This document shows, piece after piece, positions 26,597-61,760 of a DNA stretch of 64,000 bases. The stretch covers positions 888,501-952,500 of the forward strand of contig NC_022997.1 of the NCBI RefSeq assembly GCF_000503895.1, written 5' to 3'. This stretch comes from Hyphomicrobium nitrativorans NL23. GTDB taxonomy: Bacteria; Pseudomonadota; Alphaproteobacteria; Rhizobiales; Hyphomicrobiaceae. A program made the position numbers and the translations under genes. The stretch's first letter is position 1, and each line of letters opens with the position of its first letter. Under the pieces are notes generated by a model, which saw only the letters and a list, made by a program, of their open reading frames with translations, was not told where the DNA came from and ran no database searches.

Positions 26597-26597
26597 C

Positions 26598-29457: not shown

Positions 29458-29623
29458 GACACCTAGCTCCGTAAGCCGACCGATGCTGACGCATCGGCCG
29501 CGTCGTCATGTGTCGTGGCCAGATAGGCCGCAAGCGCAGAGGTGACCTCCGCCATGTTCGCAAACCTATCGAATGTCATTGTCATCGGATGTATCTTGGC
29601 GCCGAGTGGGCAGGCTTCTCTCG

Positions 29624-32754: not shown

Positions 32755-32783
32755 ATAGACGACCCCGCTCGGAGCGAGTGCAA

Positions 32784-34019: not shown

Positions 34020-34195
34020 GCGTAAAACCATCCGATCAGCCGAACGGGATGACCGCCAAGATCCGGTTTCAGGCGCGTTTTCCGCAGCTCATCGCGGGTG
34101 AGGTCAATGAGACCGGGGTCCGCAGATGCGTGGCGCCGCTCTCTGGGGAAGGCGCCCTCGGGCGCGCGTTCCGGGCGGGGCGGGAAGCCGAATAG
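34016..34195 (+). CDS. Possible 59-residue protein coupled to the export gene
   Basis: The ATG overlaps the export-gene stop (ATGA). The translation begins MSVKPSDQPNGMTAKIRFQA and ends RAGREAE, with no domain or membrane helix. Only the overlap supports it; it could be chance or a decayed gene. Confidence 0.3.
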   Translation: MSVKPSDQPNGMTAKIRFQARFPQLIAGEVNETGVRRCVAPLSGEGALGRAFRAGREAE

Positions 34196-34228
34196 TTATG
34201 GCTAATGCTCAAATTAGTAAATTAAACG

Positions 34229-34257
34229 TTGAAAACTGTCCCATAGTCCCCTAAACG
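34229..34257 (+). promoter_or_regulatory. Candidate promoter of the initiating sugar transferase
   Basis: TTGAAA (34229-34234) and TAAACG (34252-34257) are separated by 17 bp in a locally AT-rich region 30 bp before the ATG. AAAACTG (34232-34238) and CAGTTTT (34271-34277) form an inverted repeat across it, and AACGTT occurs at 34225 and 34264, suggesting a regulated leader. Confidence 0.4.
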
Positions 34258-34287
34258 ACTCTTAACGTTCCAGTTTTGTGCGTCCCC

Positions 34288-42871: not shown

Positions 42872-45691
42872 ATGGTCAAGCAGAGCATGCAACGAAGAGG
42901 TTCCGCATCGCGGTTCGTGGCCGTTGCGTTCGGTTCGCTCGTTTGCTCGATCGCTTTTCTGGGTGCGAAGGCCGATGCCGTCGCCCAAGTCGTTCATGAA
43001 ATAACGATTGCTACGCCCAGTATCATCGCGATCGAGGTGAGGGATCCTCCGTTCGAATCCGGGAGCATCGAGCAACTCGCGCACCCTAGCAGCAGTGAGC
43101 AGGGCACCTGGATCAAGGTCGGACGCCGGTGGGGTATGGTGATCGGTCCCGACCGCGCGCACGTGCGGATTTCAGACACCCCTCCGGCGGTGTATTTGGA
43201 TCGCGCAGGCGTTGACGATGCTTCTCGCTATGGGGAAATCGCGGGCGGCAACGTCACGTCCGTCTTTCGCAAGTCGGTCCCTTATGATTCAGGTATCTAC
43301 CGAGGTCCCAACGGGGATACGCGGACGGGTGCAAGCCTGAAGCATTACATCTATCTAAAGCTGTCTCAGCCGCTGTCCGAAGGATCGCATACGATTCGTT
43401 GGCCGTCCGGCACCCTGCCCGACAGCGAGTTCGAGTACGCCGGCACAGAGACGCGTGCTATCGCCATTCGTGCCAATCAGAACGGCTATAGGGCGACGGA
43501 CGCTGGAAAGGTTGCATACCTTTCGCTGTGGTTGCCTGGAGGGCCGGCTGAGGGAGCCGTCGACTTCAGAGAATTTGGCCTCAAAGCGTTTCACATCATC
43601 GATGAGACAGGTGCAGCGCATTTCTCGTCTTCGATAAGACTTCGCTCGGCTCCGTCCGATCCGGAGCCGGGCAACGGACTTCCTGCTCCGCTGCTGGAGT
43701 ATCCGAGCGCGTCCCAGTCCGCGATCCGCATCGACGGAATGGATGCTGCGGCGCCGTTCACGGTGCGCGCGCAAAATCACGGATTCTCCCCGGGACAGCG
43801 GATCTGGCTGGATGGCTTCGCTGGGTCTACGGCGCAGTTCAACGGGTTTGTGACCGTTGGTGACGTCACAACGGACACCTTTACGCTCGGTGAGCTGCCC
43901 AGCAGCAGTCCAGCGCCCAACTCCTTTGGTCCTCCGGTTGCGCTTCCCGTTCACAGTGCCAATCGTGCCGGCACATTCGTTTTCGAACTCGATTTCGGGA
44001 GCTGGACGCCAAAAGCGGAGGGCGCATACCGCATCCTAATTCCGGGTCTCGGCGTATCCGACGCGTTCGAGGTTCGTGACGACGTTTGGTTCCGCGCAGG
44101 AAAAGCGTCGATCGGCGGGCTCTACAATCATAGAAGCGGCATCGCGCTCGACGGGCGTTTCGGTTTCACCCGCCCGGTGTCCTTCCGCCCCGGTTCGCAA
44201 GTTGCCGTTCGGTTGTCGAAACTCCCGCTGACATGGAGTTCCAATTTTCATGGCGGCTTCATTTCCGCCGATCTGGGCGGCGGGAAGCCGTGGATCACCG
44301 ACGAAGCGGCGCCCGACAGCTACTGGGGCGGTTACATGGATGCTGGCGACTGGGATCGCCGCATCGATCATCTGGACGCGAGCTATCTGTTGCTCGACGT
44401 CTACGAGAGTTCTGCCGATGCGTTGCGCGCGTTGCCTCTCGGGATTCCGAAGTTACGCGATGTGTTGGACGGCGACCTTTACGGGGAGGCCGACGATCTG
44501 CCGGATGTGCTTCACGAGGCAATCTGGACAATCGACTTTTTTCGCCGGTTGCAATTGCCCGACGGCAGCGTTCGTGGCGGGATAGAGAGTTCCGGGCATC
44601 CCCTGCTGGGAACGCCCAGTTATCTGGAGCACCTGACGGTCTTCGCTTATGCGCCCGATGAGATCTCGTCGTATCGGTATGCGGGAGTTGCAGCTAAGCT
44701 TGCGGGGATTCTGGACCGGGCAACCAAGCCTCGGTTGGCCGAGGTCTATCGAAGCAGCGCGCTGTCTGCCTGGCGAGCGGCCGAAAATATCAGCAGCAAT
44801 CGAGACGCTGTCTATGCGGAGCCACGATCCTTGGCGGAGGCGAGTGGTCAGTTCGCGTCAACATCATGGGATGTGCATGCGGAGAGCTTGACGCAAATCG
44901 CCGCCGAGCATCGGGTTGCAGCCGCTGGGTCTCTGTTTCGTCTGACCGGCGAGGACGAGTACCGAGAAATTTTCGAAGCCGGCTGGGCCGGTGAGGTGGA
45001 GCCTTACATTCACAAGGCGGATGGAGCGTGGGAGTACTATCGCGCCCCGCATTCGACGGTGAATGCCGGCCTCCGCGACCGTATTTCCGCGCTGTTCACC
45101 GCTTCGGCGAAACTCATCGTGGATGGACAGAATTCCTTCGCTTATCCCAGCATGAAGCATCCGTTTTCCCCGATCGGCTGGGGGCAAGGTCTCGCTCCGG
45201 ATTACAATCAAAGCCAGCTCTTGATCCGCGCGCACCAGATCGCCAACGATGGAGACATCCTGCGCACGATGCAGGTGGCATCAGCGCATATTCTCGGCGC
45301 CAATCAAGTCGGCCTCAGCTTTACGACGGGGCTAGGCCATCGGAACATCAAGCATCCTCTCCACGTCGATCATCTCGCGATGGGCGTCCAGGTGCCTGAC
45401 GGGATCACGATCTATGGGTGGGCGCCTCAGGCCGATACCTCCCACGAGTGGCTTTTCGGGCCACCGTGGACACCGTTGCCAATCAGCGGAACGGAAGAGG
45501 GTGCACAGGGCCGGAGGGTTTCCCCAAATCGCTTTGCCATGCCCTTCTACGAATATTTAATCGAGCATCCATTACTGATTATGCAGCAGGAATATACGGT
45601 GCATCAAACGATCGGCACGACCGCGGGGGTGTGGCTTTATCTGCACGCGCATGGCGGGGAAGCCTCTTCGCCAGAGAGACGGTCGCCCTAA
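42872..45691 (+). CDS. Secreted glycoside hydrolase family 9 (endoglucanase-like) with an inserted module
   Basis: A 939-residue exported glycanase. A signal peptide (about 14-38) precedes a novel beta-rich segment (40-190) and a CelD_N Ig-like domain (about 195-405). Between its strands, residues about 283-340 form an inserted unit resembling FCCH-type modules (FTVRAQNHGFSPGQRIWLDG, then TTDTFTLG). The GH9 (alpha/alpha)6 domain is about 415-925, with catalytic base motif GGYMDAGDWDRRIDH (D490/D493), NQVGLSFTTGLGHRNIKHP and a likely proton donor E907 in MQQEYTVHQ. Such hydrolases in export loci trim or release the polymer, implying a beta-1,4-glucan-like backbone. It sits directly before the polymerase gene. 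Confidence 0.87.
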   Translation: MVKQSMQRRGSASRFVAVAFGSLVCSIAFLGAKADAVAQVVHEITIATPSIIAIEVRDPPFESGSIEQLAHPSSSEQGTWIKVGRRWGMVIGPDRAHVRISDTPPAVYLDRAGVDDASRYGEIAGGNVTSVFRKSVPYDSGIYRGPNGDTRTGASLKHYIYLKLSQPLSEGSHTIRWPSGTLPDSEFEYAGTETRAIAIRANQNGYRATDAGKVAYLSLWLPGGPAEGAVDFREFGLKAFHIIDETGAAHFSSSIRLRSAPSDPEPGNGLPAPLLEYPSASQSAIRIDGMDAAAPFTVRAQNHGFSPGQRIWLDGFAGSTAQFNGFVTVGDVTTDTFTLGELPSSSPAPNSFGPPVALPVHSANRAGTFVFELDFGSWTPKAEGAYRILIPGLGVSDAFEVRDDVWFRAGKASIGGLYNHRSGIALDGRFGFTRPVSFRPGSQVAVRLSKLPLTWSSNFHGGFISADLGGGKPWITDEAAPDSYWGGYMDAGDWDRRIDHLDASYLLLDVYESSADALRALPLGIPKLRDVLDGDLYGEADDLPDVLHEAIWTIDFFRRLQLPDGSVRGGIESSGHPLLGTPSYLEHLTVFAYAPDEISSYRYAGVAAKLAGILDRATKPRLAEVYRSSALSAWRAAENISSNRDAVYAEPRSLAEASGQFASTSWDVHAESLTQIAAEHRVAAAGSLFRLTGEDEYREIFEAGWAGEVEPYIHKADGAWEYYRAPHSTVNAGLRDRISALFTASAKLIVDGQNSFAYPSMKHPFSPIGWGQGLAPDYNQSQLLIRAHQIANDGDILRTMQVASAHILGANQVGLSFTTGLGHRNIKHPLHVDHLAMGVQVPDGITIYGWAPQADTSHEWLFGPPWTPLPISGTEEGAQGRRVSPNRFAMPFYEYLIEHPLLIMQQEYTVHQTIGTTAGVWLYLHAHGGEASSPERRSP

Positions 45692-45734
45692 TGTGGTGTC
45701 GTGGGCGGCTGGATGGCGACTTCGCGCTGCCTGA

Positions 45735-47135
45735 ATGCGCCTGCCTGCCGATTTCCTTGCTCGGGACATGCAGCGTCCGATGAAGTACGTCGCGCTTTTC
45801 ATAGGTCTTGTCGGTATCGTACCCCTCACTCTTTTTCTGAGAGGAAACCCGGCCGCGCGTAATCACTTCTGGCTTCTGCTCGGTGTCATTCCCTTCATCA
45901 TCAAAGTCGTGCCGCTGTTCGATCTTGCGCTGATCACGTGGCATGATTTCTGGTTCGGCTTCGTTCCGGGTCTTCAAGTCTCGGCGATCGATCTCATCGC
46001 CATCGCCCTTTATTTTACGGTGAGGCACCAGACCAACAGCATCCGCTATCATTTTCCGTTTTTGCTTTATTTGACAGCCATATCGCTGTCGGTGTTTCAG
46101 GCGGACGAGCCTCTCGCAGCCGTATTCTACTTGTGGCAATGCCTGAGAATTTACTTCTTCACGATCGTCATCGCGAAGGCTTGCACGGACGAGGCCGTCC
46201 CGATGCAATTGCTGAAAGGCTTGGCCATCGGTATCGCGATCCAGTTCTTCGTGGTGATCTACCAGAAGTTCGGCTTGAAGCTGATCCAGCCCACGGGCAC
46301 GTTCATTCACCAGAATACGCTGGGTTTGATCATGCACTTGGTGGTGATGCCGCACTTTGCGCTTCTGTTGCGCGGCCAACGTCAGATCCTGAGCGCTCTC
46401 ACTCCAATGTGGGGACTGACTGTTGCCGCGCTCATCGCGTCGCGCGCCGCGCTCGGCTTCGCGGTCATGGGCGTTTTAGCGACCTACTTCCTTTCATCGC
46501 TCCGCCGTTGGTCCACCCGGAAGGCGTTGGTGGGTCTTGGCGGCGTGCTGATTGCGGCGGTGTTGGTGCCGGTCGCTATTTCCTCACTTGAGAAAAGGTT
46601 CGATGCAGCCCCGCTCATGGAGGACGAGTATGACGAGCGTGCAGCGTTTAATCGCACGGCTCTTTCCATGCTCGCGGCCAAGCCATTCGGAGTTGGAGCC
46701 AATCATTATGCGTATGCCGGTAAGAAGTACGGCTACTCCATTCGGGCGGGCGTCGTTCCGTTTGAAGGAAACCTCAACAACATCGTTCACAACGCCTACT
46801 ATCTCAACGCTGCGGAGGCCGGCTATCTGGGCCTCGTGGCGTTCACGATCCTGATGCTCTACCCGATCTGGATCGCGCTTCGATATAGCTGGATGGCGCG
46901 CGGGGATCCGCGCGGCGATCTCTTGCTCGGGCTGGGCATGGGGCTGGCGACTGTAGCCGCGCACTCTCTTCTGGAATACGTCGTCGTCGTGCAGGAGGTG
47001 CAGTATGTTTTAGCCATGGTCGTCGGGATGATATTTGGCGTTGCGCATCAAATCAGGATCTCTCGTAGCGAGGGGGCGAGGGCCCCGAGATCGGGTGTCC
47101 TTCGTGGCCCGGTCGGCGGTCAAGCCATCCGATAG
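45735..47135 (+). CDS. O-antigen/exopolysaccharide polymerase (Wzy, O-antigen ligase family)
   Basis: A polytopic membrane protein of up to 466 residues with about 11-12 helices. Internal starts at 45768 (MQRPMKY) or 45780 (MKYVALF) are possible, because the first residues are not membrane-like and no clear ribosome-binding site marks 45735. The O-antigen polymerase/ligase signature is the large periplasmic loop with PFGVGANHYAYAGKKYGY and NIVHNAYYLNAAEAGYLGLVAF, preceded by FIHQNTLGLIMHLVV. It joins flipped repeat units at the periplasmic face. The gene converges, with a single spare base, on the minus-strand family 4 glycosyltransferase. Confidence 0.88.
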   Translation: MRLPADFLARDMQRPMKYVALFIGLVGIVPLTLFLRGNPAARNHFWLLLGVIPFIIKVVPLFDLALITWHDFWFGFVPGLQVSAIDLIAIALYFTVRHQTNSIRYHFPFLLYLTAISLSVFQADEPLAAVFYLWQCLRIYFFTIVIAKACTDEAVPMQLLKGLAIGIAIQFFVVIYQKFGLKLIQPTGTFIHQNTLGLIMHLVVMPHFALLLRGQRQILSALTPMWGLTVAALIASRAALGFAVMGVLATYFLSSLRRWSTRKALVGLGGVLIAAVLVPVAISSLEKRFDAAPLMEDEYDERAAFNRTALSMLAAKPFGVGANHYAYAGKKYGYSIRAGVVPFEGNLNNIVHNAYYLNAAEAGYLGLVAFTILMLYPIWIALRYSWMARGDPRGDLLLGLGMGLATVAAHSLLEYVVVVQEVQYVLAMVVGMIFGVAHQIRISRSEGARAPRSGVLRGPVGGQAIR

Positions 47136-47136
47136 G

Positions 47137-48381
47137 TCAACGATTGCGATGCGGCGGCTGCCGAGCGGCCGACAGCAGATCGTCCAGCGCGTCCTTGACC
47201 TGCGCTTGGAACCTTGCCTGCCGGTCTTCCCACCACCGCCGTCCTTCTGCACCATCGCCACGCGGGGCCTGGAGCAAGTCTTGGATTGCCGCCGACATTC
47301 CCGCGGCGTCACTTTCGATACGAACGGAAGAAGGCACGTCGTGGAGGCCACGCATCGCGACGGGCGTTGCCACAGTCGCTACACCAAGGCTCAACGTCTC
47401 GATGGTTTTGATTTGCACGCCGGACCCGATCGTCGTCGGGATGACCGCTACTCGGCACTTTCGCAGAAACGCTCCCGCATCCGGTACAAAGCCGGTGAAG
47501 TGAACGCGGCCGATTTGGGTCCCAGGTGCATATCGGCTTTTTCCGCCCACAACCACGGTGAGGTCGGCCGGGAGCTTCGGAACGACCTCGGCAAGAAACC
47601 AATCGAGCCCGACCCGATTGATGTCCCAAGTCCAACTCCCGAGGAGCCCGATATCGGTGCTTGGTGGCGGAAACCGATCCACATGCGCAAAACATTGGCC
47701 CGGGACGCTGAACGACCAAACCGGCGTTCCGCCCCCAAGCGATCGAAGCGCTGCCGCATCGTCGTCCGTCAGAGTCCAAACGGCCCGCGCTCGTTCTGCG
47801 GTTCGCCTTTCCAGATGGCGCAACAACCGCGCTTCTCGCCGGTACGCTAGGCTCTTTGCCCTTCCGCGCAAGCCTTTGGCGACCCTCTTGTCATAGTCGC
47901 CATACAGCCGATGTTCGATGTTGTGCGCGACGTATGCAACCGGCAGGTCATCGGGTATGGCGGCCACCATCCAAGCGGCCTGCACATGGTCGATAATGAC
48001 CAGGTCCCATCGGTTCGAGCGCAGTTTGCGGCGAACGAGATCGGCCATCTCCTTGGTCACGTACTTCTGCACCGAGAACGGCCGTGCATTCACTATCGCA
48101 CGCGCCATCCAGAGCGCGGACCGTGTTGGAGATTGCGCGCTTTCGATCACCAGCCGCCTTGGGGAAGAAAACCCGGCCGGCAGGGGAACGGGCGCCGATC
48201 GATCCTCCCTCTCGTAGCCGACGACATCGACCTGGCATCCGGCGTTTTGCAGGGCTTCGATGAAGTTCATTGAGCAGATCTCGCCGCCGCTCTGTCGGCC
48301 GTGCGGTAGAACCGTCGTTAAATAGAGCACCCGACGCCCCGATACCCCGTCGAACGATTGTTCAGAAATCGGCGTCATCAA
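47137..48381 (-). CDS. Family 4-type glycosyltransferase
   Basis: A 414-residue GT-B enzyme. The N-terminal acceptor half has RVLYLTTVLPHGRQSGGEICSMNFIEAL, WDLVIIDHVQAAWMVAA and VAYVAHNIEHRLYGDY. The C-terminal donor half contains IGLLGSWTWDINRVGLDWFLAEVVPKLP and VIPTTIGSGVQIKTIETLSLGVATVATPVAMRGL, typical of GT4 proteins from exopolysaccharide clusters. It is the last polysaccharide gene before the NRPS-PKS cluster and is transcribed away from it. Confidence 0.92.
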   Translation of the reverse strand: MMTPISEQSFDGVSGRRVLYLTTVLPHGRQSGGEICSMNFIEALQNAGCQVDVVGYEREDRSAPVPLPAGFSSPRRLVIESAQSPTRSALWMARAIVNARPFSVQKYVTKEMADLVRRKLRSNRWDLVIIDHVQAAWMVAAIPDDLPVAYVAHNIEHRLYGDYDKRVAKGLRGRAKSLAYRREARLLRHLERRTAERARAVWTLTDDDAAALRSLGGGTPVWSFSVPGQCFAHVDRFPPPSTDIGLLGSWTWDINRVGLDWFLAEVVPKLPADLTVVVGGKSRYAPGTQIGRVHFTGFVPDAGAFLRKCRVAVIPTTIGSGVQIKTIETLSLGVATVATPVAMRGLHDVPSSVRIESDAAGMSAAIQDLLQAPRGDGAEGRRWWEDRQARFQAQVKDALDDLLSAARQPPHRNR

Positions 48382-48734: not shown

Positions 48735-51700
48735 GTGACAATGATCGCGTGCGTATTGATGGGCGACGGCTCGCTCCTGGTGCAGTGCGGGGAGACCCTC
48801 CTGGCGCGAGGGCATAAGGTTGTGGCGGTTGCAACGACGACCGAGAGTGTCGTCGAGTGGGCTGCGCGGCACGGGATCTCCGTGGTGACGTCAGAGACAC
48901 GCGATCTTGCCCGTGATCTTGCTCCGTTCGAGTACGACTGGTTCTTTTCCATCGCGAACTTGAGGCTCGTGCCAGAGTCCGTCTGGTTGCGCGCAGGCCA
49001 AGGCGCTGCGAACTTTCACGATGGTCCGCTTCCTCGCTACGCTGGCCTGAACACTCCTGCGTGGGCCATCTTGAAAGGCGAGACCCAGTATGGTGTGACG
49101 TGGCACGCTCTCACGGACAGTATCGATAAGGGGGATATTTACGCCGACGTTGCGTTCGAGATCAGCGACGCCGACACGGCGTTGACGTTGAATGCGAAAT
49201 GTTTCGAAGCGGGCATGACCTCTTTCACGACGCTGCTCGATCGCGTGGAGAACTGTCAGGCAAAAAGCTGGCCGCAACCTGCTGTCGCGAGCCGGTATTT
49301 CGGTTTGATCGATCGTCCGGAAGGGGCGGCAACAATCGATTTCGAGCGCACGACAGGTGAAATCTGGCGGCTCGTGCGCGGCCTTTCGTTCGGCGATGGC
49401 TATGTCAACCCGCTGAGCTTGCCCAAGCTCCGGACTCCGAGCGGCGCGTATGCGGTTACCTCGCTTGAGGTGGCGGATGCAGAGGCGCCGAATGCTCCTG
49501 GCACCGTCGTATCCGTCAGAGAGAATGGTGCGATCGTCGCCGCGGCAGATGGGGCGGTTTCGATCGAGGCGCTGGCCGACAGTTCTGGTCAGGCCGTGCC
49601 GCTCACCGCTGTTCTGACAGCAGGTGATATCCTTCCTGCGCTCGACGAGGCCGAGGCTGCGCGGCTAACGATCCTCATGGCCGATCTTGCGCGACATGAG
49701 GAGTTTTTCCGCAGGCGCCTCGTGGGCGCGGAGAACCCGGAAATCGATGGTGTTGTGCCCGCTTCTCCCGAAGCGGTGCCTGAGTGGGAGGCGGTGGAAG
49801 TCGCGCTACCCGACAACCTGAGAGGCGACAAAGCCGTTGCGGCGCTGGTGTCGTACGTTGCCCGCACGGGGCGCAAGGCCCGCGTTCGGATTGCTTACGC
49901 TGACGACGATCTCGCGGCCCTGGCCAATGAGCATCGGGGATACGTCGCGCCGAGCGTTCCCCTCACGCTCGATGTGACGAACGAGACGACGGTCGATGCG
50001 CTTGAACGCGTTATCGAGACCGAACTCGCCGAAGTCCGCCGCCGGCGCGGCCATGCGGGAGATCTGGTGAGCCGGACGCCGCGCCTCGCTCCCGGCCCGG
50101 CCACGCTCGCCATTCGGCAGACGGCGCACGCGCGCAGTGTTGGAGACGAGGGTTTGCCCGGTAGCGTTCTGACGTTCGTCGCCGCATCGGACGCGGCAAC
50201 GCTCCGTATCCTGTTTGACGGCGCGCGGCTGCCGAAGCCGGCGGCGAACGCGATTGCCGCACAGATCGAGGCCCTGCTTGCGGCGCTCGCTTCCGGCGAG
50301 GCGCCTGAGCGCGTCTCTGACCTGCCGCTTATATCGAAAGCGGATATCGACGAACTGGTCGTTGCGCGTAACCGGACGGCGCGGGACTATGATCGCGCGG
50401 CCCTCGTGCATACGCTCATTTCCGCGCAGGCCGCGCGCACGCCCGACGCTACGGCGCTGATTTCGGGCGACGCGCGTCTTACCTATCGCGAGTTGGAGGC
50501 GCGGGCCGACCGTGTCGCGACAACGCTTTCTGCCCTCGGCGTCGGTGCGGATACGCCGGTTGGCCTCTACGTCGAGCGGTCGCTGGATCTCGTGGTTGGC
50601 GCGCTTGCTATTCTCAAGGCCGGCGGGGCTTACGTGCCGCTCGATCCGACTTATCCGAAGGATCGCGTCGCCCTGATGATCGAGGATAGCGGGCTGTCCA
50701 TTCTACTCACGCAGGAGGGCCTCAAACCGCCGGCTGGAGATGGACGCGTCCGGAGTGTCACCGTGGAGGATGCGCTGTCGGGCGCGGAAGATGCGACGCC
50801 CGCGAATGTCGAGCCGCACAATCTCGCCTACGTTATCTACACCTCGGGCTCGACCGGCCGTCCGAAGGGCGTGATGGTCGAGCATCGCAACGTGGTCAAT
50901 TTCTTCGCCGGCATGGACGACCGTATCTCCATGCCGGGCGATGGGAGCCAGCCAGTGTGGCTCGCGGTGACAAGCCTGTCATTCGACATATCCGTGCTGG
51001 AACTCTTTTGGACGCTGACGCGCGGTTTTGCCGTTGTCATCCATACGGGTCGACAGCAAGCGGCTACGCCGCATCGTGCTGCGGGTGGCCACGGGCTCGA
51101 TTTCAGCCTCTACTTCTGGGGTAACGACGACGGCGCAGGATCACGCAAGTATCAGCTCCTGCTCGAAGGGGCCCGTTTCGCCGACGCGCACGGCTTCTCG
51201 GCCGTCTGGACGCCGGAGCGCCATTTCCATGCATTCGGCGGGCCCTATCCCAATCCATCGGTCACGGGCGCTGCCGTTGCCGCGGTGACCAAGACCCTTG
51301 AGATCCGCGCTGGAAGCTGCGTGCTTCCGCTTCACCATCCGGCCCGCGTTGCCGAAGAGTGGGCGGTCATCGACAACATTTCGAACGGGCGCGTGGGCAT
51401 TGCATTCGCGTCGGGATGGATGCCGGAAGATTTCCTGCTGCGTCCGGAGAACGCGCCGCCGCACAACAAGACCGCCCTGCTGCGCGATATCGATGTCGTG
51501 CGCCGCCTTTGGCGGGGCGAAGCGGTTCCGTTCGACGCGCCGGGCGGCAAGCAGGTCAATGTCGTAACGCAGCCGCGCCCGGTCAGTCCCGAACTCAAAA
51601 TATGGGTTACGACCGCCGGCAATCCGGACACGTATCGCGAGGCCGCGCGGCTTGGCGCGAACGTGCTGACGCATTTGCTCGGCCAATCCATCGAAGAGGT

Positions 51701-53384
51701 GGCCGAGAAGGTCAAAATCTATCGCGACACGCTGGCAGAGACCGGCCGCAATCCGGACGATTACACCGTGACGCTGATGCTGCACACGTTGATCGGCAAC
51801 GATCGGGAAGAGGTGCGCACGGCCGCTCGCGAGCCGATGAAGGCGTATCTGCGCAGCGCCGCGGCGCTGATCAAGCAATATGCGTGGGCGTTCCCTGCCT
51901 TCAAGAAGCCCAAGGGTGCTACGCAGCCCATGGACATCGACCTCCAGTCTCTGGATCCGGATGAGATGGATGCCATCCTCGAATTCGCATTCCTGCGCTA
52001 CTTCGACGATAGCGGTCTCTTCGGCACGGTGGACGATGCGCTGGCGCGGGCCGAGCAGGTGATGGCCATCGGTGTGAACGAGATCGCCTGTCTCGTGGAC
52101 TTCGGCGTGCCGATGGAGCGGGCCTTGTCCGCGCTTGAGCCTCTGGCGGAGGTGGTATCCGGTTTGAAACAACGCGCGAGCGTTATCACGGATGTCGCGG
52201 CGGACGGTCTCGCCGATCTCGTTCGCCGCCATGGCGTTACGCATTTTCAATGCACGCCGTCGATGGCCACCATGGTGCTGATGAGCGACGAGGATCGCGA
52301 GGCGCTCTCTGCTGTCCGGCACCTCTTCATCGGCGGTGAAGCGCTGCAGCCCAGCCTGGTCGAGGCGCTCGGTCAGGCGACCTCCGCGACCGTCGAGAAC
52401 ATGTATGGCCCGACAGAGACGACGATCTGGTCGTCCACCGGCCCCGCGCGGTCCGGGGGGAGCGGCTCGGCGCCGCTCGGTACGCCTATCGCCAACACGC
52501 AGCTCTATGTCCTCGATGACGCACTGCATCCCGTGCCGTCAGGAGCGGCGGGTGAGCTGTACATTGGCGGCGATGGTGTCACGCGCGGCTACCTCGGACG
52601 CGAAGACCTCACGGCCGAGCGCTTCCTCGACAACCCGTTTGTGCCGGGTGGCCGTATTTACAGGACGGGCGACCTGGTCCGGATCGGCGAGGACGGCGAG
52701 ATCCATTTCCTCGGCCGCGCGGATCATCAGGTCAAGGTGCGCGGCTATCGCATCGAGCTCGGTGAAATCGAGGCCCGCCTCGGTTGCCATCCCGATGTCG
52801 CGGAGGCGGTGGTCGTGGTGCGAGAGGACGAGCCGAACGACACGCGCATCGTCACCTATGTTCGCTTCAAAGGCGAGCCTGTCTCCGACGCTGCCCTGAA
52901 GGCTCACGTCTCGGCAGAGCTTCCTGATTTTATGGTGCCGGCGCATTTCGTGACAATGACTGCCTTCCCGCTGACGCCGAACGCAAAGGTGGACCGGAAA
53001 GCGTTGCCGCGACCGGACGAGGTGCGCCAAGCGGCACCCGTGGTCCAGTATGTGGCGCCCTCGGACGATCTTGAGGTGCGTCTTGCGGACGCCTTCAAGC
53101 GGTTGCTCGGTGTGGAGCGAGTCGGCGCGTCCGACAACTTCTTCACGATCGGCGGGCATTCGCTGCTTGCCGTTCAGCTTCACCGCGATCTCAAGGCCAA
53201 CGTTGCGGCGGATATTACGATCACCGACATTTACCGTTTCCCGACCGTGAAGGGGCTCGCGAGCCATGTTCGCGACCGAGGCCAGGCGGATAAGCACCTT
53301 GAGAATGTGGCCAACCGTGCAGCGATGCGCCGCCAAGCGATGCTCGGACGCCGCGATCCCGGGCGTGCGCGCGACGTGTCGTGA
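48735..53384 (+). CDS. NRPS: formyltransferase, remnant C, A domain split by luciferase-like monooxygenase, PCP
   Basis: A 1549-residue synthetase starting at GTG (ATG at 48741 also in frame). Residues 1-240 are a formyltransferase domain with the active-site set N93, H95 and D131 (NFHDGPLPRYAG, IDKGDI). Residues about 350-550 resemble only the C-terminal part of a condensation domain; HHxxxDG is absent. The A domain runs 555-770 (YTSGSTGRPKGVM, FDISVLELFW), is interrupted at 785-1140 by an FMN luciferase-like monooxygenase of the MupA/Atu3671 type (LDFSLYFWGND, WTPERHFHAFGG), and resumes 1148-1425 (NMYGPTETT, YRTGDLVRI, K1422). The carrier serine is S1476 (GGHSL). There is no thioesterase. 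The probable product is an N-formylated, alpha-oxidised aminoacyl thioester passed to the PKS. Confidence 0.92.
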   Translation: MTMIACVLMGDGSLLVQCGETLLARGHKVVAVATTTESVVEWAARHGISVVTSETRDLARDLAPFEYDWFFSIANLRLVPESVWLRAGQGAANFHDGPLPRYAGLNTPAWAILKGETQYGVTWHALTDSIDKGDIYADVAFEISDADTALTLNAKCFEAGMTSFTTLLDRVENCQAKSWPQPAVASRYFGLIDRPEGAATIDFERTTGEIWRLVRGLSFGDGYVNPLSLPKLRTPSGAYAVTSLEVADAEAPNAPGTVVSVRENGAIVAAADGAVSIEALADSSGQAVPLTAVLTAGDILPALDEAEAARLTILMADLARHEEFFRRRLVGAENPEIDGVVPASPEAVPEWEAVEVALPDNLRGDKAVAALVSYVARTGRKARVRIAYADDDLAALANEHRGYVAPSVPLTLDVTNETTVDALERVIETELAEVRRRRGHAGDLVSRTPRLAPGPATLAIRQTAHARSVGDEGLPGSVLTFVAASDAATLRILFDGARLPKPAANAIAAQIEALLAALASGEAPERVSDLPLISKADIDELVVARNRTARDYDRAALVHTLISAQAARTPDATALISGDARLTYRELEARADRVATTLSALGVGADTPVGLYVERSLDLVVGALAILKAGGAYVPLDPTYPKDRVALMIEDSGLSILLTQEGLKPPAGDGRVRSVTVEDALSGAEDATPANVEPHNLAYVIYTSGSTGRPKGVMVEHRNVVNFFAGMDDRISMPGDGSQPVWLAVTSLSFDISVLELFWTLTRGFAVVIHTGRQQAATPHRAAGGHGLDFSLYFWGNDDGAGSRKYQLLLEGARFADAHGFSAVWTPERHFHAFGGPYPNPSVTGAAVAAVTKTLEIRAGSCVLPLHHPARVAEEWAVIDNISNGRVGIAFASGWMPEDFLLRPENAPPHNKTALLRDIDVVRRLWRGEAVPFDAPGGKQVNVVTQPRPVSPELKIWVTTAGNPDTYREAARLGANVLTHLLGQSIEEVAEKVKIYRDTLAETGRNPDDYTVTLMLHTLIGNDREEVRTAAREPMKAYLRSAAALIKQYAWAFPAFKKPKGATQPMDIDLQSLDPDEMDAILEFAFLRYFDDSGLFGTVDDALARAEQVMAIGVNEIACLVDFGVPMERALSALEPLAEVVSGLKQRASVITDVAADGLADLVRRHGVTHFQCTPSMATMVLMSDEDREALSAVRHLFIGGEALQPSLVEALGQATSATVENMYGPTETTIWSSTGPARSGGSGSAPLGTPIANTQLYVLDDALHPVPSGAAGELYIGGDGVTRGYLGREDLTAERFLDNPFVPGGRIYRTGDLVRIGEDGEIHFLGRADHQVKVRGYRIELGEIEARLGCHPDVAEAVVVVREDEPNDTRIVTYVRFKGEPVSDAALKAHVSAELPDFMVPAHFVTMTAFPLTPNAKVDRKALPRPDEVRQAAPVVQYVAPSDDLEVRLADAFKRLLGVERVGASDNFFTIGGHSLLAVQLHRDLKANVAADITITDIYRFPTVKGLASHVRDRGQADKHLENVANRAAMRRQAMLGRRDPGRARDVS

Positions 53385-54049
53385 GCGCTTTCTCCGGCCT
53401 CTTCGACAAACGAATTGCGTTTGCCGAAATCCCGATCGGCGACCCCTCCGTCACGATCTGCGAGGAAGAGGCAGCGGCCGTTTCCAACGCGGTTCTCCGC
53501 CGCAAGCAAGAATACGCGGCGGGGCGCACGTGCGCGCGTCGTGTCCTTGCGGCTCTGGGCGCGTCGCCGTCTCCCTTGCTGGCTGGCTCGGATCGCCTGC
53601 CGAGCTGGCCGACCGATTACGTCGGCAGCATTACGCATGACGACCGTTATGCGGCTGCTGCCGCGGGGCGCATCGCCGACGGCATACGGTCGATCGGCAT
53701 CGATCTGGAGCCGGCCGAGCCTCTACCCGCCGATCTCCACGAACTGATTTGCCGTCCCGAAGAACTGGCGTGGCTCGGCAGACGCCCGGCAGCCGAGCGC
53801 GGCGTGCTCGCCCGCGTGCTTTTCGGCGCAAAGGAGTGTGCGTTCAAATGCCAGTATCCGCTTACGCGCCGGATGCTGGAGTTTCATGAGGTTTCCGTCA
53901 GCCTCGACGTGGGATGCGAAGCTTTTTGCGCGTCGTATTTGTGCGATGAGGTGATTGCGATCTGCGGCCCCGCTGTGCGGGGCCGCTTTAGAATCGCCGG
54001 TGCATCCATCGCGTGCGCGATCGTGTTGGATGTCGCCGCGCTACCATAA
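53381..54049 (+). CDS. 4'-phosphopantetheinyl transferase (EntD/Sfp type)
   Basis: A 222-residue enzyme that loads the phosphopantetheine arm onto carrier proteins. The EntD-type motifs are AAGRTCARRVLAALG, VGSITHDDRY, IGIDLEPAEPLP (metal-binding Asp and Glu) and FGAKECAFKCQYPL (the WxxKE-like motif, here FGAKE). Its GTG start overlaps the NRPS stop by 4 bp (GTGA), so it is made with the NRPS and surely serves both carrier domains in the cluster. The last 25 codons contain a strong hairpin (53964-53986). The stop is 2 bp from the convergent PKS stop. Confidence 0.94.
   Translation: MSAFSGLFDKRIAFAEIPIGDPSVTICEEEAAAVSNAVLRRKQEYAAGRTCARRVLAALGASPSPLLAGSDRLPSWPTDYVGSITHDDRYAAAAAGRIADGIRSIGIDLEPAEPLPADLHELICRPEELAWLGRRPAAERGVLARVLFGAKECAFKCQYPLTRRMLEFHEVSVSLDVGCEAFCASYLCDEVIAICGPAVRGRFRIAGASIACAIVLDVAALP
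53964..53986 (+). terminator. Hairpin inside the 3' end of the PPTase gene
   Basis: GCGGCCCCGC (53964-53973) pairs perfectly with GCGGGGCCGC (53977-53986) around TGT and is followed by TTTA. It lies within coding sequence about 60 bp before the stop. It may act as a terminator for the NRPS-PPTase mRNA or limit read-through between convergent genes; the U-tract is short. Confidence 0.45.
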
Positions 54050-54051
54050 CT

Positions 54052-57000
54052 TCATTCTGCGGCAATCGGCCGAGATGATGGGCCACGGTCGGCGCTCGCC
54101 AGTGCCTCGCGCAGGCGGCTGGCCATAACGCGCACGTGCGGCTCCAGCACCATACTGTCGTGATCGCCCGGGACTTCCTGCACCGAGAGACTTGCTGCGT
54201 AAGGCGCCCAGCCGTTGTCGGGCAGCAGCAGAGCGCGCTCCTCATTGAGGGCACGGTTGCCCGTGACGCGATAGCGTACGTCTTGCTTGGGTCGCATGAG
54301 TAGCACCGGCTCTCCGTAGGGTTGGCCCCGGTAGCGTGACAGCGCCCGGCGAAACGCCGCCTCAAGCTCCTCGTTGTGGAATTGCTCGGCAGACTTCGGC
54401 GATTCGGGCCTGCGGCGCGCTTCCATGCGCCTGCGTTCCCACGCTATACGCCGGCGGGCCCAGTTTCCGAAAAACGCCACGCCTTCCCGCTCCATGTCCT
54501 GGAGCTTCATCAGGATCCGATCCTGGATCGAGAGCGGTACGTCCGCGGGGTAGGGCGTATCGAGTAAAACGACGAGTGCCGTCTTTTCTCCGGCCTTGCG
54601 AAGCTGCTGCGCCATCTCGTAAGCCACAAGGCCGCCGCCTGAGAAGCCACCGATCAGGTAGGGGCCTTCCGGCTGCACCGTTCGGATTTCCGCGAGGTAA
54701 TCGCGCGCCGTCTCCTCGAAGGTTTCGTGCGGCGCCTCGCCGCCGTAGATGCCGCGGGCTTGGAGGCCGTAGACGGGACGATCGGTGCCGATATGGACCG
54801 CGAGATGGCGCAGGTTGAGAATGTTGCCGAACATACCGGCGGCAAGGAAGAACGGGGTGCGGCGGGTCTCCTTTCCCGCGTCCATCCGCACGACATGCCG
54901 GAGCTTGGGCCGATCGAGCGCCGTGACTGTCGCACTTTTGCCCGTGGGTTCGCCGGCCTTCGGCGAGGTTTCTTCGATCAACGCGGCACATTGAGCGATC
55001 GTCGGCGCCTCGAACAGCACAGAGATCGGGAAGTCGACGGCGTAGGCGGCCTTGATCATGCGGAACAGGCGCACTGCGATCAGAGAATGCCCGCCGAGAT
55101 CGAAGAAGTTGTCCTGCGTGCCGATTGCTTTCACGCCAAGGAGCTCGGACCAGAAACCGGCCAGCGTCTTTTCGACATCGGTCGTAGGCTCGATGAAGTC
55201 GACGCCGAGGTTGGGCCGCTCGAAGGTGGTCGAGGCCGCCTCGATCCCATCGACGCGCGCAGCAGCACGCCGAAGGGCCGCGAGATCGATGGAGCTTACG
55301 ATGACCTGCGATTTTCCGGTCCCCACGGCGCGGAGCAACGCTTCGAAGCCGTCTTCCGGCAGGATGCCTTGGTCGACTTGGGCTGCGAGGCGCTGAAGCG
55401 CAGGGCTGAGTTCCGTTCCGCCGGCTGGCGCGCGCGTCGCTGCGGCCCCCTCCGCCTCGGTGGAAAGCGAAGCTGCAAGGTCGATGTTTGCGGGAAGGCG
55501 CCGCACGGTGAAGCCGTTCACGGCGACCAGGACCTGGCCGGCATCGTCCGTGACGGTGACGTCGAAGGTGGCATAATCCGCGCCGAGTTCCCGCGCCGTG
55601 TTGAGGCGCGCGTGGCTCCACAGCGAAGCCGGCAGCGTCCCAAACACCCGGATGCGGCCGTAGGTCATCGGCACCCAAAGGCCGGCGCCGGGATCGTAGT
55701 TTGGGATCAAATCCATGGCGTAGCCGGTCGCGATGTCGAGCAGCGCAGGGTGGACGAGGAAGCCGTCGTCGAGATCGGTCTTGAACGCGTCGTCGAGCGC
55801 GAGCCGTGCGATCGCTTCGCCCTGGCCGAGCGCGACGGAGCGCAAGACCTGCCAGCGAGGGCCGAACTTGAGATTGCCGTCCTGTGCGGATTTGAGTGCG
55901 AGACCCGTCTCTGCTGCGTGAGTTGTCTGGCTGCAAGAGGCGAGCACTTGCGCAATGTCGATGCGGGCAGGGCGCGGGCCGACAAACGCGCTGACCCTGG
56001 CTTCCGCGTGCCGTAGCGGCGTTGTCGCGCCCTCGATACCACGCTCGCTTTCGACGGCGAACATGTAGCCGTCGCCGTCTTTGGCAAGTGTGACGCGCGC
56101 GACCAGGGGCGTTTCGTCCGGAACGTGTAGCGGACGCAGGAATGTGAGGTCTTCGATCTCAAACGGTCCGCCGATGTCGTGCTCTGCGAGCGCTTCGGCT
56201 GCGAACTCGATGTAGCCCGTGCCTGGCCAGATGGCATGGCCCGACTTCAGGCGGTGCTCGTCGAGCACCCACTGGCGCGTGCTGGCGAGGCGGGATTCGA
56301 GCCAGTCGCTGCGGGCGCTGCTGAGGCGCCTGTCGAACAGCGGCGTGCGGGCCGGTTCCACCTTCGGCGCCGCATCCTGGTGCTCGGCCGCGGCGATGGC
56401 GCGGGCCGCGAGCCCGACATTTTTCCAGATGCCCCAATGCAGCGCGAGCGTGCGCCCTGGCGCGCCCGAACGGGTCTCTGCGAAAGCGTTCAGGAATGCG
56501 TTTGCGGCCACGTAATCCACTTGGCCGGCGGGTGCCGTATCGGTGCTCGTCGAGGAGAAGAGCACCATGACGTCGAGTGGCTCATCGGCGAGCACGTCGG
56601 CCAACACGAGCGTGCCGTGGATCTTGGGCGCGAACACGTCCTCGATGTCCGTGGGGTTCTTGAGTGCGATCAGGTCGTCCTTCACCACTCCGGCCGCGTG
56701 CAGCACTCCATGAATGGCGCCGAAGCGCGCTTTGGCATCGGTTACGACGGTGCGCATAGCTTCGGAATTGGTGATGTCGGCCTTCGCGATCATGACCTCG
56801 CCGCCGGCAGCCTCGATGCGTTCGATGGCGGCGATGGCCCGGCCGATCTTGTCGCGCGTGCCGAACGCGGCAAGATAGTCACGCCATTCTTCGCGGTCAG
56901 GCAATTCGGTTCTGCCAATCAGAACCAGGCGCGCCTTGAAGCGCTGCGCCAAGTCTTCGGCGCACGCGGTTGCCAGTTCTCCAAGGCCTCCGGTGATCAA

Positions 57001-60000
57001 ATAGACGCCGCGCTCGCGGAAGGCTGTCTCGCCTTGCGACGCGTCGTCGAGCGTGAGCGGCGCGAAACCTAAAACCCAGCGGCGGCCCCGGCGATAGGCG
57101 GCGATCTCGCTGCCGTTGGCTGCAAGCAGATCGTCCCAAAGCTGGGAAAAAACGACATCCTCGGGATCGTTATCCGCGCTTGCGTTGGCGAGATACCGTA
57201 GAAGACGCGCTCTTTCGCGCGCCAAGAGGCCGAGGCGCGCGTCTGGCGAAAGCGGAAGGTCCACGACGCGCACCGAAACGTTGGGCATTTCGCGCGGTAG
57301 CACCTGGGCGGGTCCGAGCAGTGTCGCTTTCTCCGGATAGCGTACCGCCTCGTTCCCGACACGCTGCATGCCGTTGGTTACGGCCGTGATTTGGAGCGGC
57401 TCGGTTGCGCCGATCTCGCTCAACGCTTGTCCAAGCCAAAGGAGGCTGAGGAATCCGCGCTCGATATTGCGATGGAAGAAACTCGATCCGGGCCGGAAGC
57501 TCTCGTCGTGAGTCAGAAGCCAAAGATGGACGATCCGCTGCGGCAGGCCGCGCTCGGCGGCGAGGTGGTTCAGAAGCGCGTCGTATCCCTCGCGTCCGTG
57601 CTCGGGGCACAGGACGTAATTGCCGGGCGCGACGACGCCGAATGTGTCGCCGAGCGAGACGGTCGCGACCTCATGCCCGAGTTCGCGCAAGCGGTGGGCG
57701 AGGGTATCTCCGAGGGGCGATCCGTCGAGGAAGATCAGCCATGATGCGGGCGTGTCAGCGGCGTCGATCCTGACGTCGGGCGATGCCTGCTTCCAGACCG
57801 GTTCCCATCCCCAGTTCGCCATATCCGGCAGTTTGACGGGCGAGGCCTCGCTCTCTGCCGCACTCGACGGCGCGATGCGTTCGAGAAAGTAGGTCTCATG
57901 CTGGAACGCGTAGGGGGGCAGGTTCACCCGGCGCGGCGCGGTGTCGATGGTCAGCCGGTCGAGCGGAACGTCGAGGCCCACGGCCCATGCGCGACCCACC
58001 GCCGTCAGGAAAAAGAGGCGATCGTCGAGCGTCTCGTCGGCGTGCGGCAGGCTGTTGATGACCTGATTGGCGGGAATGCCCTGCGCCTTGGCAAGCGAGC
58101 CAAGCACACGCCCGGGGCCAACCTCGATGAACACTCGTGACTGCGTTTGCGCGAGCAGGCCGAGCCCGTCGCCGAACCGCACGGTAGATCTGAGATGGCG
58201 CGTCCAGTAGGTGGCGTCCTGTGCTTCGTCCGCGGTGAGCCAGGTGCCGGTCAGGTTGGAGACGATGGGAATGCGAGGGGTCGAAAGCGGCGTCGCCTTG
58301 AGGAAGGCTTCGAAACGTTCGAGGATCGGCGCCAGCATCCGCGAGTGGGCTGCGATGTCGATGGGGATGCGGCTTGCGTCGATGTCGTCGGCGGCAAGTG
58401 CTTCACGGAAGGCTTCGAGCGCTGAATTCGCCCCCGAGACGACGCAGAGTTCCGGCGCGTTCACCGAGGCGAGGTCGAGATCGTCAGGGAGGCGCAGTTT
58501 CAGGGCCGCGGCTCCGAGCGCGACGCTCAACATCCCGCCGGGGGAGATCTCTTCGAACAGCTCGCCGCGAAGACGGACGAGATTGACAGCGCGCTCATAG
58601 CTCAGCACGCCCGCGATGCAAGCCGCAGCGTTCTCGCCCATGGAATGGCCGATCAGCGCAGTGGGCTTCACGCCCCAGCTCATCCAAAGACGTGCTATCG
58701 CCACCTCGACGATGAGGATTGCGGGAAGCTGCAGCGACGGTCGCAGAAAGCGCTCCGCGGCACCGGGTGTAGGTCCGTCGGTTGCGAGCCATATCTCGCG
58801 GATCTCCTGGCTGGCTGCCGCAGGGAGATAAGAAAGTCCTTCATCTACGATCCGGCGGAAAGCCGCTTCGTCCCTGTAGAGGCTGCGGGCCATGTGCGGA
58901 TACTGCGCCCCGCCGCCCGGGAACATGAAGACGGCATCCGCCGTGCCCTCGACCGGCGTATGCGTGAACACGCGGTGCTTATCAGGCTCGGCGAGAATGC
59001 CGATCGCGTCGGCACGGTTGGACACGGCGACGACGCGCCGGTGCTCAAAATGACGCCGCCCGTCGAGCAGCGTATGGGCTACGTCCTGGAGCAGCGCGTC
59101 CGGGTTCGCATCGAGGTGCCGGGCAAGCCGCCGTCCGCCGTCGTCGAGGGCGTTACGGTTTTTGGCGGTGAGGACCAACACGTGCGGGCCGGCTTCGGTC
59201 CGCGCTTCCGTGGCCTTGAGCCTTGGCGGCTCCTCCACGATGATATGGGCGTTGGTGCCGCCGACGCCGAGCGAGTTGACGCCGGCGCGTCGCGGTGCCG
59301 GGCCGGACGGCCAATCCGTCAGGCGGTCGGCAACCACGAACGGGCTCGTCGCGAAGGGGATTGCCGGATTGGGTTTTTCGAAGCCGAGCGTAGGCGGAAT
59401 CTCGCCATTCTTTACGGCGAGCACGGCCTTGATCAGGCTCGCGACACCTGCGGCGGTATCGAGATGGCCGATGTTGGATTTCACCGACCCGACGCGGCAG
59501 AAGCCCGTTTTGTTGGTGGTTTGGCGAAACGCCTGCGTCAGCGCCTCGATTTCGATCGGATCTCCGAGATACGTGCCGGTGCCGTGGCATTCCACGTAGC
59601 CAATCGATTCCGCATCGACGCCAGCTATCGCTTGCGCCTCGACGATGGCTTCCGCCTGGCCGGTGACGCTCGGCGCGAGGTAGCCTGCCTTGCTGGCACC
59701 GTCGTTGTTGACGGCGCTTCCCTTGATGACCGCATGGATGGGATCGCCGTCCGCAATCGCATCGGCGAGGCGGCGCAGCACGACGACGCCGGCACCGCTT
59801 CCGAACACCGTCCCGGATGCGCGATGGTCGAACGAACGGCAGTGGCCGTCGGTCGAGAGGATCTCGCCTTCCTGGTAGACGTAGCCGCGCCGGTGGGGCA
59901 GCTCGATGGTGACGCCGCCCGCGAGCGCCATCTCGCACTCGCCGTTGAGAAGGCTCTGGCAGGCCTGGTGAACCGCGACGAGCGAGGTGGAGCAGGCCGT

Positions 60001-60992: not shown

Positions 60993-61760
60993 GTGCGTGC
61001 CGAGCCCTTTTTTGTCGAAGGCGTAAGCGTACAGACACTGTCGTTGAAAGAGGCATCGTGTCGCATTTGTGACGATGTCGCTTCCGGCAAGTCGTTCTCG
61101 GTCTTCACGCTCAATCTCGACCACGTCGTGAAACTTCGTACGAACCCGGCCTTCCGGGCCGCGTACGAGCGTGCTCGTATCGTGCTTGCCGATGGCTTTC
61201 CGATTGTTCTTGCCGGGCGCCTGCAGGGGCGGCGCCTTTCGCGGACAACGGGTGCAGATCTCATCGTGCCGCTCTGCGAAGAGGCTGGCCGGCGGGGGTT
61301 GCCCGTGTTCCTGCTCGGTTCGACGCCGCGTTCTCTGGCCGGCGCGCAACGCCATCTCACGACCTTGATCTCCGAGCTCGACGTGGCAGGCACATATGCA
61401 CCCGAACAGGGGTTCTCGCCGTTCTCCGAGCCGGCCGATGAAGCCATGGAAGCCATTCGCAATTCCGGTGCACGTCTATGTTTTGTTGCGCTGGGCGCCC
61501 CCAAGCAGGAAATTTTTGCTGACCGATGCGCACGGGAAATCGAAGGCGTTTCCTTTCTGTGCATCGGGGCGGGCCTCGATTTTCTCGCGGGGCACCAGAA
61601 GCGGGCGCCCAAGGCTTTCCAGGCCATGGGGCTTGAGTGGCTATGGCGGATGCTTCTGAACCCCGGCCGTCTCGCCCGGCGCTACGCCGAGTGCCTCGCC
61701 GTATTTCCCGGTGTCCTGCTCGATAGTCTATCGCGGCGGTCGGAGCGGGCTGGCCCTTGA
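60993..61760 (+). CDS. WecG/TagA/CpsF-family glycosyltransferase (GT26)
   Basis: A 255-residue glycosyltransferase. Family signatures are VFTLNLDHVVKLRTNPAFRAAY, the catalytic-Asp segment IVLADGFPIV, TGADLIVPLCEEAGRRGLPVFLLGS, and LCFVALGAPKQEIFADRC followed by CIGAGLDFLAG. The C-terminal APKAFQAMGLEWLWRMLLNPGRLARRY gives the membrane-peripheral tail. It transfers a sugar such as N-acetylmannosaminuronic acid or mannose to a lipid-linked acceptor in related systems. The GTG is preceded by GAGGGA. It belongs to the polysaccharide locus that resumes after the NRPS-PKS cluster. Confidence 0.93.
   Translation: MRAEPFFVEGVSVQTLSLKEASCRICDDVASGKSFSVFTLNLDHVVKLRTNPAFRAAYERARIVLADGFPIVLAGRLQGRRLSRTTGADLIVPLCEEAGRRGLPVFLLGSTPRSLAGAQRHLTTLISELDVAGTYAPEQGFSPFSEPADEAMEAIRNSGARLCFVALGAPKQEIFADRCAREIEGVSFLCIGAGLDFLAGHQKRAPKAFQAMGLEWLWRMLLNPGRLARRYAECLAVFPGVLLDSLSRRSERAGP

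Follow-up and report, generated by a model that had tools for sequence, protein, structure and literature searches.

A formyltransferase-led starter synthetase with a monooxygenase inside its adenylation domain, set among polysaccharide genes in Hyphomicrobium

What might a nonribosomal peptide synthetase (NRPS) supply when it opens with a formyltransferase, carries a monooxygenase inside its adenylation domain and stands among genes for a surface polysaccharide? This question is raised by a 64,000-nucleotide stretch of Hyphomicrobium nitrativorans NL23 (contig NC_022997.1, positions 888,501 to 952,500), here called the window, in which such a protein is encoded by one open frame with a GTG start. 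The predicted chemistry, in which an N-formylated and alpha-oxidised amino acid primes an assembly line, is well supported by the sequence, and we hold it with clearly more confidence than the destination of its product in a polysaccharide. The parts of the NRPS are the following.

48735..53384, + strand: NRPS starter protein of 1549 aa, in the order formyltransferase (F), C-lobe remnant of a condensation (C) domain, first half of the adenylation (A) domain, luciferase-like monooxygenase (LLM), second half of the A domain, peptidyl carrier (PCP)
48735..49634, + strand: formyltransferase domain, about residues 1–300, triad N93, H95, D131
49692..50369, + strand: condensation-domain C-lobe remnant, about residues 320–545, without HHxxxDG
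50394..51089, + strand: adenylation domain, first half, to core A4
51102..52154, + strand: flavin mononucleotide (FMN) luciferase-like monooxygenase insert, residues 790–1140, TIGR04020
52200..53009, + strand: adenylation domain, second half, holding core A5
53079..53270, + strand: peptidyl carrier domain, Ser1476
53307..53369, + strand: Arg-rich conserved C-terminal tail (R1532, R1539), a possible docking helix to the neighbouring polyketide synthase (PKS)

This domain order, which the initial annotation had read from the letters and their translations, was recovered with Pfam and NCBIfam domains and a profile of the C remnant. Pfam models matched Formyl_trans_N (36–161), Formyl_trans_C (199–292), AMP-binding in two stretches (the better at 564–780), Bac_luciferase (796–1069), AMP-binding_C (1344–1418) and PP-binding (1449–1512), and the NCBIfam A-domain model TIGR01733 also matched in two stretches, with the better at 1156–1360. 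The insert matches TIGR04020, the MupA/Atu3671 family of monooxygenases, at 475.6 bits against a curated cutoff of 244.45, and since the match covers positions 1–340 of the 341 in the model, the inserted monooxygenase appears complete. Its nearest solved relative by sequence is PuwE (6ket, 344.5 bits), so the earlier proposals of a flavin monooxygenase at residues 785–1140 and of membership in the MupA/Atu3671 family both hold; annotators have already applied the NCBI name of this family to the whole protein. PuwE, of the same family, is described in PMC4219810 as flanked by PKS and NRPS modules, with a proposed part in forming a 3-amino-2-hydroxy acyl chain, whereas the monooxygenase of the window lies inside an A domain.

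The architecture is not rare: the A-LLM-A order was found in 87 relatives, 83 of which have F and PCP in the same frame, and as the relatives were retrieved through F or the whole protein, F was partly selected for and the monooxygenase less so. A chance open reading frame (ORF), a frame error or an assembly artefact is ruled out by its retention in these 83 proteins. Large minus-strand ORFs within the NRPS gene, such as 51141–52529, look like shadow frames of high-G+C DNA.

The insertion lies between cores A4 (FDISVLELFW) and A5 (MYGPTE), confirming the site after FDISVLELFW that had been pointed out. An AlphaFold2 model of residues 554–1425, built from a 44-sequence alignment, had a mean pLDDT of 85.9 and a pTM of 0.59, a modest value that leaves the placement of the insert relative to the A domain uncertain. 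In Foldseek comparisons, the model fitted the phenylalanine-activating domain 1amu over 876 columns including gaps with a target TM-score of 0.70, and the insert fitted PuwE (6ket) with a target TM-score of 0.91 and a root-mean-square deviation of 3.3. By this model, and as the initial annotation had supposed, the two A halves are predicted to form one adenylation domain around the insert.

The pocket code of this domain, read from alignment columns, is DILQFGMIWK and resembles DILQLGLIWK, which we take to be the glycine code. D751, I752 and L755 are invariant in 13 and in 44 sequences. Among 89 aligned NRPS proteins, the window's included, Q1172, G1200, M1223 and W1232 are each present in 86 of 86 non-gap rows, K1418 in 84 of 84, and position 1231 holds I in 82 of 86 and V in 4; position 1198 varies (F in 32, M in 28, L in 19, Y in 5, H in 2, gap in 3). 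Glycine is most likely the substrate, as predicted from this code. In the same alignment, the F triad, which was placed by alignment with ArnA and by what we take to be its known residues, is kept at N93 in 88 of 89 proteins and at H95 and D131 in all 89, and the carrier Ser is found in 84 of 84 non-gap rows.

Between F and A, Pfam Condensation gave no match at E 0.001, and an HHxxxDG-like motif was found in 0 of 88 proteins scanned. A 19-sequence profile of this region matched solved C domains over their C-terminal parts (8hlk, 2e-14; 6p1j, 2.9e-13; EntF, 2.1e-6). On these profile matches the stretch is a condensation C-lobe remnant, and the protein is predicted to have no functional condensation domain ahead of A. 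At the other end, R1532 is present in 80 and R1539 in 81 of the 89 proteins, and the Arg-rich tail could serve in docking, handing the starter to the PKS.

The F triad, together with a whole flavin monooxygenase that interrupts the A domain, makes a starter amino acid with an N-formyl group and an oxidised alpha carbon the natural prediction. The initial annotation had suggested this first unit, and the triad and the whole monooxygenase speak for it; that account was incomplete, since it did not link the unit to the neighbouring PKS, phosphopantetheinyl transferase and exopolysaccharide genes. The two genes that follow the NRPS, and that we call with it the cassette, are these.

53381..54049, + strand: 4'-phosphopantetheinyl transferase (PPTase), with a 4-base overlap with the NRPS stop
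54052..60543, − strand: type I PKS of 2163 aa, with ketosynthase (KS), acyltransferase (AT), ketoreductase (KR), dehydratase (DH), acyl carrier protein (ACP) and thioesterase (TE) in this order, convergent with the NRPS

The PKS is a single module. Its catalytic residues, checked in 78 rows, are largely invariant: the KS Cys in 77 of 77 non-gap rows, both KS His and the AT Ser in 78 of 78, the ACP Ser in 70 of 71 and the TE Ser in 67 of 70. KR stands before DH, and a regular-expression search found the AT motif IAAH in 45 of 69 PKSs; we take both the domain order and this motif, which is not among what we believe to be the usual malonyl and methylmalonyl signatures, to be unusual.

Whether these genes belong together was examined across relatives. 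Scanning genomes for the first 559 residues of the NRPS gave at least 587 pattern matches, at least 576 of which encode a relative of that stretch, and the best 80 of 576 confirmed stretches (L032–L111) were read. Most of these belong to Hyphomicrobiales and Rhodobacterales; the others include Novosphingobium, Burkholderiales and metagenome-assembled genomes labelled Myxococcales, Polyangia, Verrucomicrobiales and Planctomicrobium. The distance matrices of NRPS and PKS are correlated over 78 loci (r 0.844, against a maximum of 0.223 in 500 permutations), and a PKS relative lies no more than about 11 kb from the NRPS in all six genomes checked; these distances indicate that the two are co-inherited. 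Gene order was counted in the 79 loci with the NRPS above threshold (1 of the 80 fell below). The PPTase adjoins the NRPS in 60 of them. A PKS on the NRPS strand lies upstream in 33 and downstream in 6, one on the other strand is divergent in 26 and convergent in 4, and the remaining loci had no PKS within the stretch (8) or were not classified (2). The stretch of L061 shows no PKS, but its genome (G003) encodes one at a distance of about 10.5 kb from the NRPS. In 32 of the 79 loci, PKS and NRPS are separated by a GT2 glycosyltransferase gene. In Ruegeria conchae, PKS, GT2, NRPS, PPTase and an SGNH-fold protein form one run with 2-base gaps and 4-base overlaps, and 14 of the 79 loci have a five-gene run like it. 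In Aliiroseovarius, a larger NRPS-PKS gene comes after the NRPS.

The NRPS was found in 10 of 385 genomes of the class in an even draw, the window's genome counted, and in 17 plasmid records a single place matched 80% or more of the query. A Deinococcus actinosclerus plasmid encodes the formyltransferase separately (L030:14785-15699); the genes for an A-LLM-A-PCP NRPS and a PKS come shortly downstream of it, and the annotation shows polysaccharide genes around them. A Mesorhizobium mediterraneum plasmid (L031) holds an NRPS/PKS frame of 5193 aa running to the end of the stretch, which begins with a related formyltransferase domain; the part of it examined gave no monooxygenase match, and it differs from the NRPS of the cassette.

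What the product is for is suggested by the rest of the window, where the cassette is surrounded by genes of Wzx/Wzy type.

25418..26614, − strand: conserved SGNH-fold protein with a signal-peptide-like N-terminus by eye; its cluster in 37 of 89 loci
26598..28328, − strand: Wzz-type chain length protein
28510..32078, − strand: two GT2 glycosyltransferases and a Wzx-type flippase
32778..35760, + strand: Wza-type export protein and polyprenyl sugar transferase
35858..37063, − strand: GT4 glycosyltransferase
42872..47135, + strand: GH9-family protein and Wzy/O-antigen-ligase-type protein
47137..48381, − strand: GT4-type glycosyltransferase
60993..61760, + strand: WecG/TagA/CpsF glycosyltransferase; its cluster in 37 of 89 loci
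61851..63314, − strand: mannose-1-phosphate guanylyltransferase / mannose-6-phosphate isomerase type enzyme

The neighbour clusters behind the two counts of 37 of 89 were built by single linkage, with shadow frames included. At 40812–41864 (+), a protein of 350 aa without a Pfam or NCBIfam match has an N-terminus that resembles sugar nucleotidyltransferases by eye.

Outside the cassette, polysaccharide genes were found in 74 of the 80 loci and a core one in 65, at 3.29 genes per 10 kb. Random 20-kb stretches had them in 3 of 40 (core in 2 of 40; 0.05 per 10 kb) and loci of other NRPSs in 1 of 20 (core in 0 of 20; 0.03 per 10 kb), the bases of the cassette genes being subtracted in the 80 loci and those of the NRPS genes kept in the other-NRPS control. 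Fisher tests that ignore kinship and control overlap gave 3.9e-21 against the random stretches and 2.5e-14 against the other NRPSs. One reference among the polysaccharide proteins, the Wzx of L027, whose gene is cut at the stretch end, was out of frame with 12 stops written as X and was kept. The six loci without such genes are three contigs of 5.6–7.3 kb, L105 (17 kb) and two from Hyphomicrobium, in which polysaccharide genes appear farther out. Annotation of the plasmids placed polysaccharide genes near the NRPS in seven of eight annotated stretches (L009, L010, L025, L027, L030, L178 and L179, not L029), and in the plasmid stretch L026 phmmer found Wzx, WecG, GT2 and Wzy. The surroundings were read in 6 of the 10 class genomes with the NRPS, and four (G000, G081, G213 and G390) are linked to polysaccharide genes.

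The SGNH-fold neighbour has no Pfam or NCBIfam match. With a profile built largely from the same cassette loci, it was detected in 35 of the 80, although L041 reached no more than 26 bits, and in none of the 40 random stretches or the 20 loci of other NRPSs. Among the 385 class genomes it occurs in four, each of which belongs to the 10 that have the NRPS and carries both genes on one contig, within about 22 kb (Fisher 2.3e-7; 9.0e-6 without the window's genome); three of the four are from one family, and the match in G311 carries a stop. The gene is 3.6–3.8 kb from the F-domain match in three of these genomes and 22 kb from it in the window. Its predicted model (pLDDT 91.9) has one match below 1e-3, the DUF4886 protein 4i8i (E 9.0e-8, target TM 0.66), of a family that we take to be SGNH-like, followed at 2.9e-3 or weaker by GDSL-like lipases and the O-acetyltransferase domains 6se1 and PatB. 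G42, H43, S44, L45, D248 and H251 are invariant in 35 and in 33 sequences; the protein thus has the block I Ser and the block V Asp-x-x-His, as we understand the SGNH motifs to be named.

Other proteins were seen in the same regions. L086:16096-18702 and 16 further loci encode a family with a median of 865 aa, whose N-terminal part scores 124–173 bits against the SGNH profile in 9 of 17, and of which the member tested has no Pfam or NCBIfam match. A second NRPS in L172:4223-11449 (genome G005, taken as Hyphomicrobium zavarzinii) is composed of a ligase resembling fatty acyl-AMP ligases (FAAL), PCP, C, A and PCP-TE, and is directly followed by another SGNH-like protein (66 bits). L087:16604-21637, cut by the locus end, encodes a second NRPS with FAAL-like ligase, PCP, C and A in the same region as the cassette. 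The ligase part matches AMP-binding in two stretches as well as a DIP2-like AMP domain, and in our reading it is a FAAL; this second NRPS might use the acid made by the cassette.

A chain from glycine to a modified polysaccharide can be outlined, to which we give about an even chance as a whole. The A domain would activate glycine and load it onto the PCP, which would make the protein a self-contained loading module; the F domain would formylate the amine from a formyl-tetrahydrofolate, and the FMN monooxygenase would add a hydroxyl to the alpha carbon while glycine is bound as a thioester. The starter would pass to the KS of the one-module PKS, for a malonyl-type extension, reduction by KR, dehydration by DH and release by TE. 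The simplest non-iterative product would be a four-carbon unsaturated acid with a formamido group and a hydroxyl at C4. In the near relatives and the window, this product would serve the polysaccharide of the surrounding genes, most likely as an acyl decoration, which the SGNH protein may help to place or remove. The sequence and the model show the domains with their catalytic residues, the glycine-like code, the single A fold, the joint inheritance with the PKS and, in the loci read, the link to polysaccharide genes. We infer that the amino acid is glycine, in what order it is formylated and oxidised, that the hydroxyl stays, that extension happens once and that the polymer receives the product. 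The more specific claim, that an NRPS-PKS primed with N-formyl-alpha-hydroxyglycine makes a non-sugar substituent of an exopolysaccharide and that an apparently secreted SGNH family, as yet without a name, adds or trims this group, we put forward tentatively, at somewhat less than an even chance.

Several points weigh against the polysaccharide destination. For acyl transfer to the polymer there is, in the SGNH protein, at most a candidate enzyme. All random controls were drawn within the window's genus, from one contig in each of five genomes, and some cover the same DNA in part; the polysaccharide count of the cassette loci is raised because these loci and the window supplied the reference proteins; and the 80 loci, as a best-scoring sample, favour the window's own subtype. 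The SGNH protein was not found in 45 of the 80 loci, and its gene is 22 kb from the NRPS in the window. In L028, L029, L180 and L182, the stretches that were read hold NRPS and PKS but lack clear polysaccharide genes (by phmmer, the plasmid stretch L028 has a single GT4 at 54 bits), L105 is a fifth such relative, and two of the six class genomes read, G342 and G401, are not linked to polysaccharide genes. Given these unlinked relatives, the NRPS-PKS pair may predate the polysaccharide setting or be independent of it.

The same four relatives, L028, L029, L180 and L182, are part of the case for a free small molecule, with the position of the cassette in polysaccharide loci reflecting shared islands or joint regulation. 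The TE could release a free acid, and the larger NRPS-PKS gene after the NRPS of Aliiroseovarius also speaks for this reading. However, the polysaccharide genes adjoining 74 of 80 near relatives from several orders, the GT2 gene that separates PKS from NRPS in 32 of 79 and the SGNH gene that tracks the cassette all count against it, and we regard a free product as possible but rather unlikely.

A different fate for the starter is suggested by related glycine modules. MtaG and MelG, as we take the myxothiazol and melithiazol genes to be called, resemble the window's NRPS in the A4-A5 insertion site, a likeness of description rather than of compared sequence; they are chain-terminating modules, whereas the window's protein is a starter with F, no complete C domain and a PKS beside it. 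According to the excerpts of PMC10204066 and PMC11342130, the hydroxylated glycine of the myxothiazol and melithiazol modules, with the monooxygenase between A4 and A5, splits to an amide and a glyoxylyl thioester. If the C-N bond were broken likewise here, N-formyl-alpha-hydroxyglycyl thioester would give formamide and a glyoxylyl thioester, and the latter would prime the PKS. The same excerpts place a monooxygenase in the glycine A domains of some corallorazine-like modules and of solanimycin, inserted between A8 and A9 in the latter, and solanimycin B keeps its hydroxyl, which counts against cleavage here (PMC10204066, PMC11342130). Formylation would also be wasteful if the nitrogen were lost, and we judge cleavage improbable next to the N-formyl-alpha-hydroxyglycine starter.

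The PKS product might alternatively be a lipid carrier or anchor of the polysaccharide, primed with formylglycine and built iteratively, similar to what has been considered for the PKSs WcbR and RkpA of capsule clusters. Type I PKS genes occur with capsule genes in the wcb/rkp clusters, and no NRPS starter is mentioned for them in the excerpts of PMC3908369; the PKS of the window, which has one, is likened to them by gene setting only. A one-module PKS with a TE could be iterative, and in Hyphomicrobium genome G005 the second NRPS, which opens with the FAAL-like ligase and ends in a TE, lies about 20 kb from the cassette. A polar formyl-hydroxyglycine starter would be odd for a lipid, and this role is decidedly improbable.

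An oxazole starter, formed from N-formylglycine by one extension and cyclodehydration, would follow the loading modules of oxazolomycin (OzmO) and conglobatin (CongA), which have the order F-A(Gly)-PCP and feed PKSs (PMC4504003, PMC4979870). The window's NRPS shares F, an A domain predicted to take glycine and PCP with them but has a monooxygenase in A, for which the excerpts of these papers mention no counterpart in OzmO or CongA, and it stands in a polysaccharide setting. A scan of the window and the flanks of the 80 loci for SGGxDS, the motif of CongE/OzmP-type cyclodehydratases, gave one match, in L057, in an apparent chance frame and thus no credible cyclodehydratase motif; an oxazole is very improbable. 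It is scarcely credible that the target of the F domain is an amino sugar of the polysaccharide instead of the PCP-bound amino acid, as F is fused to A-LLM-A-PCP in 83 of 87 proteins, even though among solved structures sugar formyltransferases of ArnA type come nearest to it, at 61 bits compared with about 25 for the LgrA F domain, and Deinococcus has the formyltransferase as a separate gene. NRPS F domains descend from sugar formyltransferases. The initiation module of linear gramicidin, LgrA, has the same F-A-PCP order, and the A halves of the window align with its structures, but it lacks a monooxygenase.

Because F-A(Gly)-PCP modules and A4-A5 monooxygenases are both known, the predicted N-formyl-alpha-hydroxyglycine starter combines known parts and is not a new enzyme type. 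In searches of open-access literature, we found no paper on a starter that joins F with an inserted monooxygenase; what is new to us is the setting, an NRPS with a PPTase and a one-module PKS among polysaccharide genes. Assembly-line enzymes are usually tied to antibiotics and siderophores, and this cassette points to an unstudied modification of surface polymers. Its range takes in Hyphomicrobium, rhizobia, Rhodobacterales and Burkholderiales, and a Deinococcus plasmid has it with a separate formyltransferase gene. If the polysaccharide reading is true, a widespread class of polysaccharides would be decorated by an assembly line, through a compact system of three to five genes with a testable product and a candidate transfer or trimming enzyme that has no family name.

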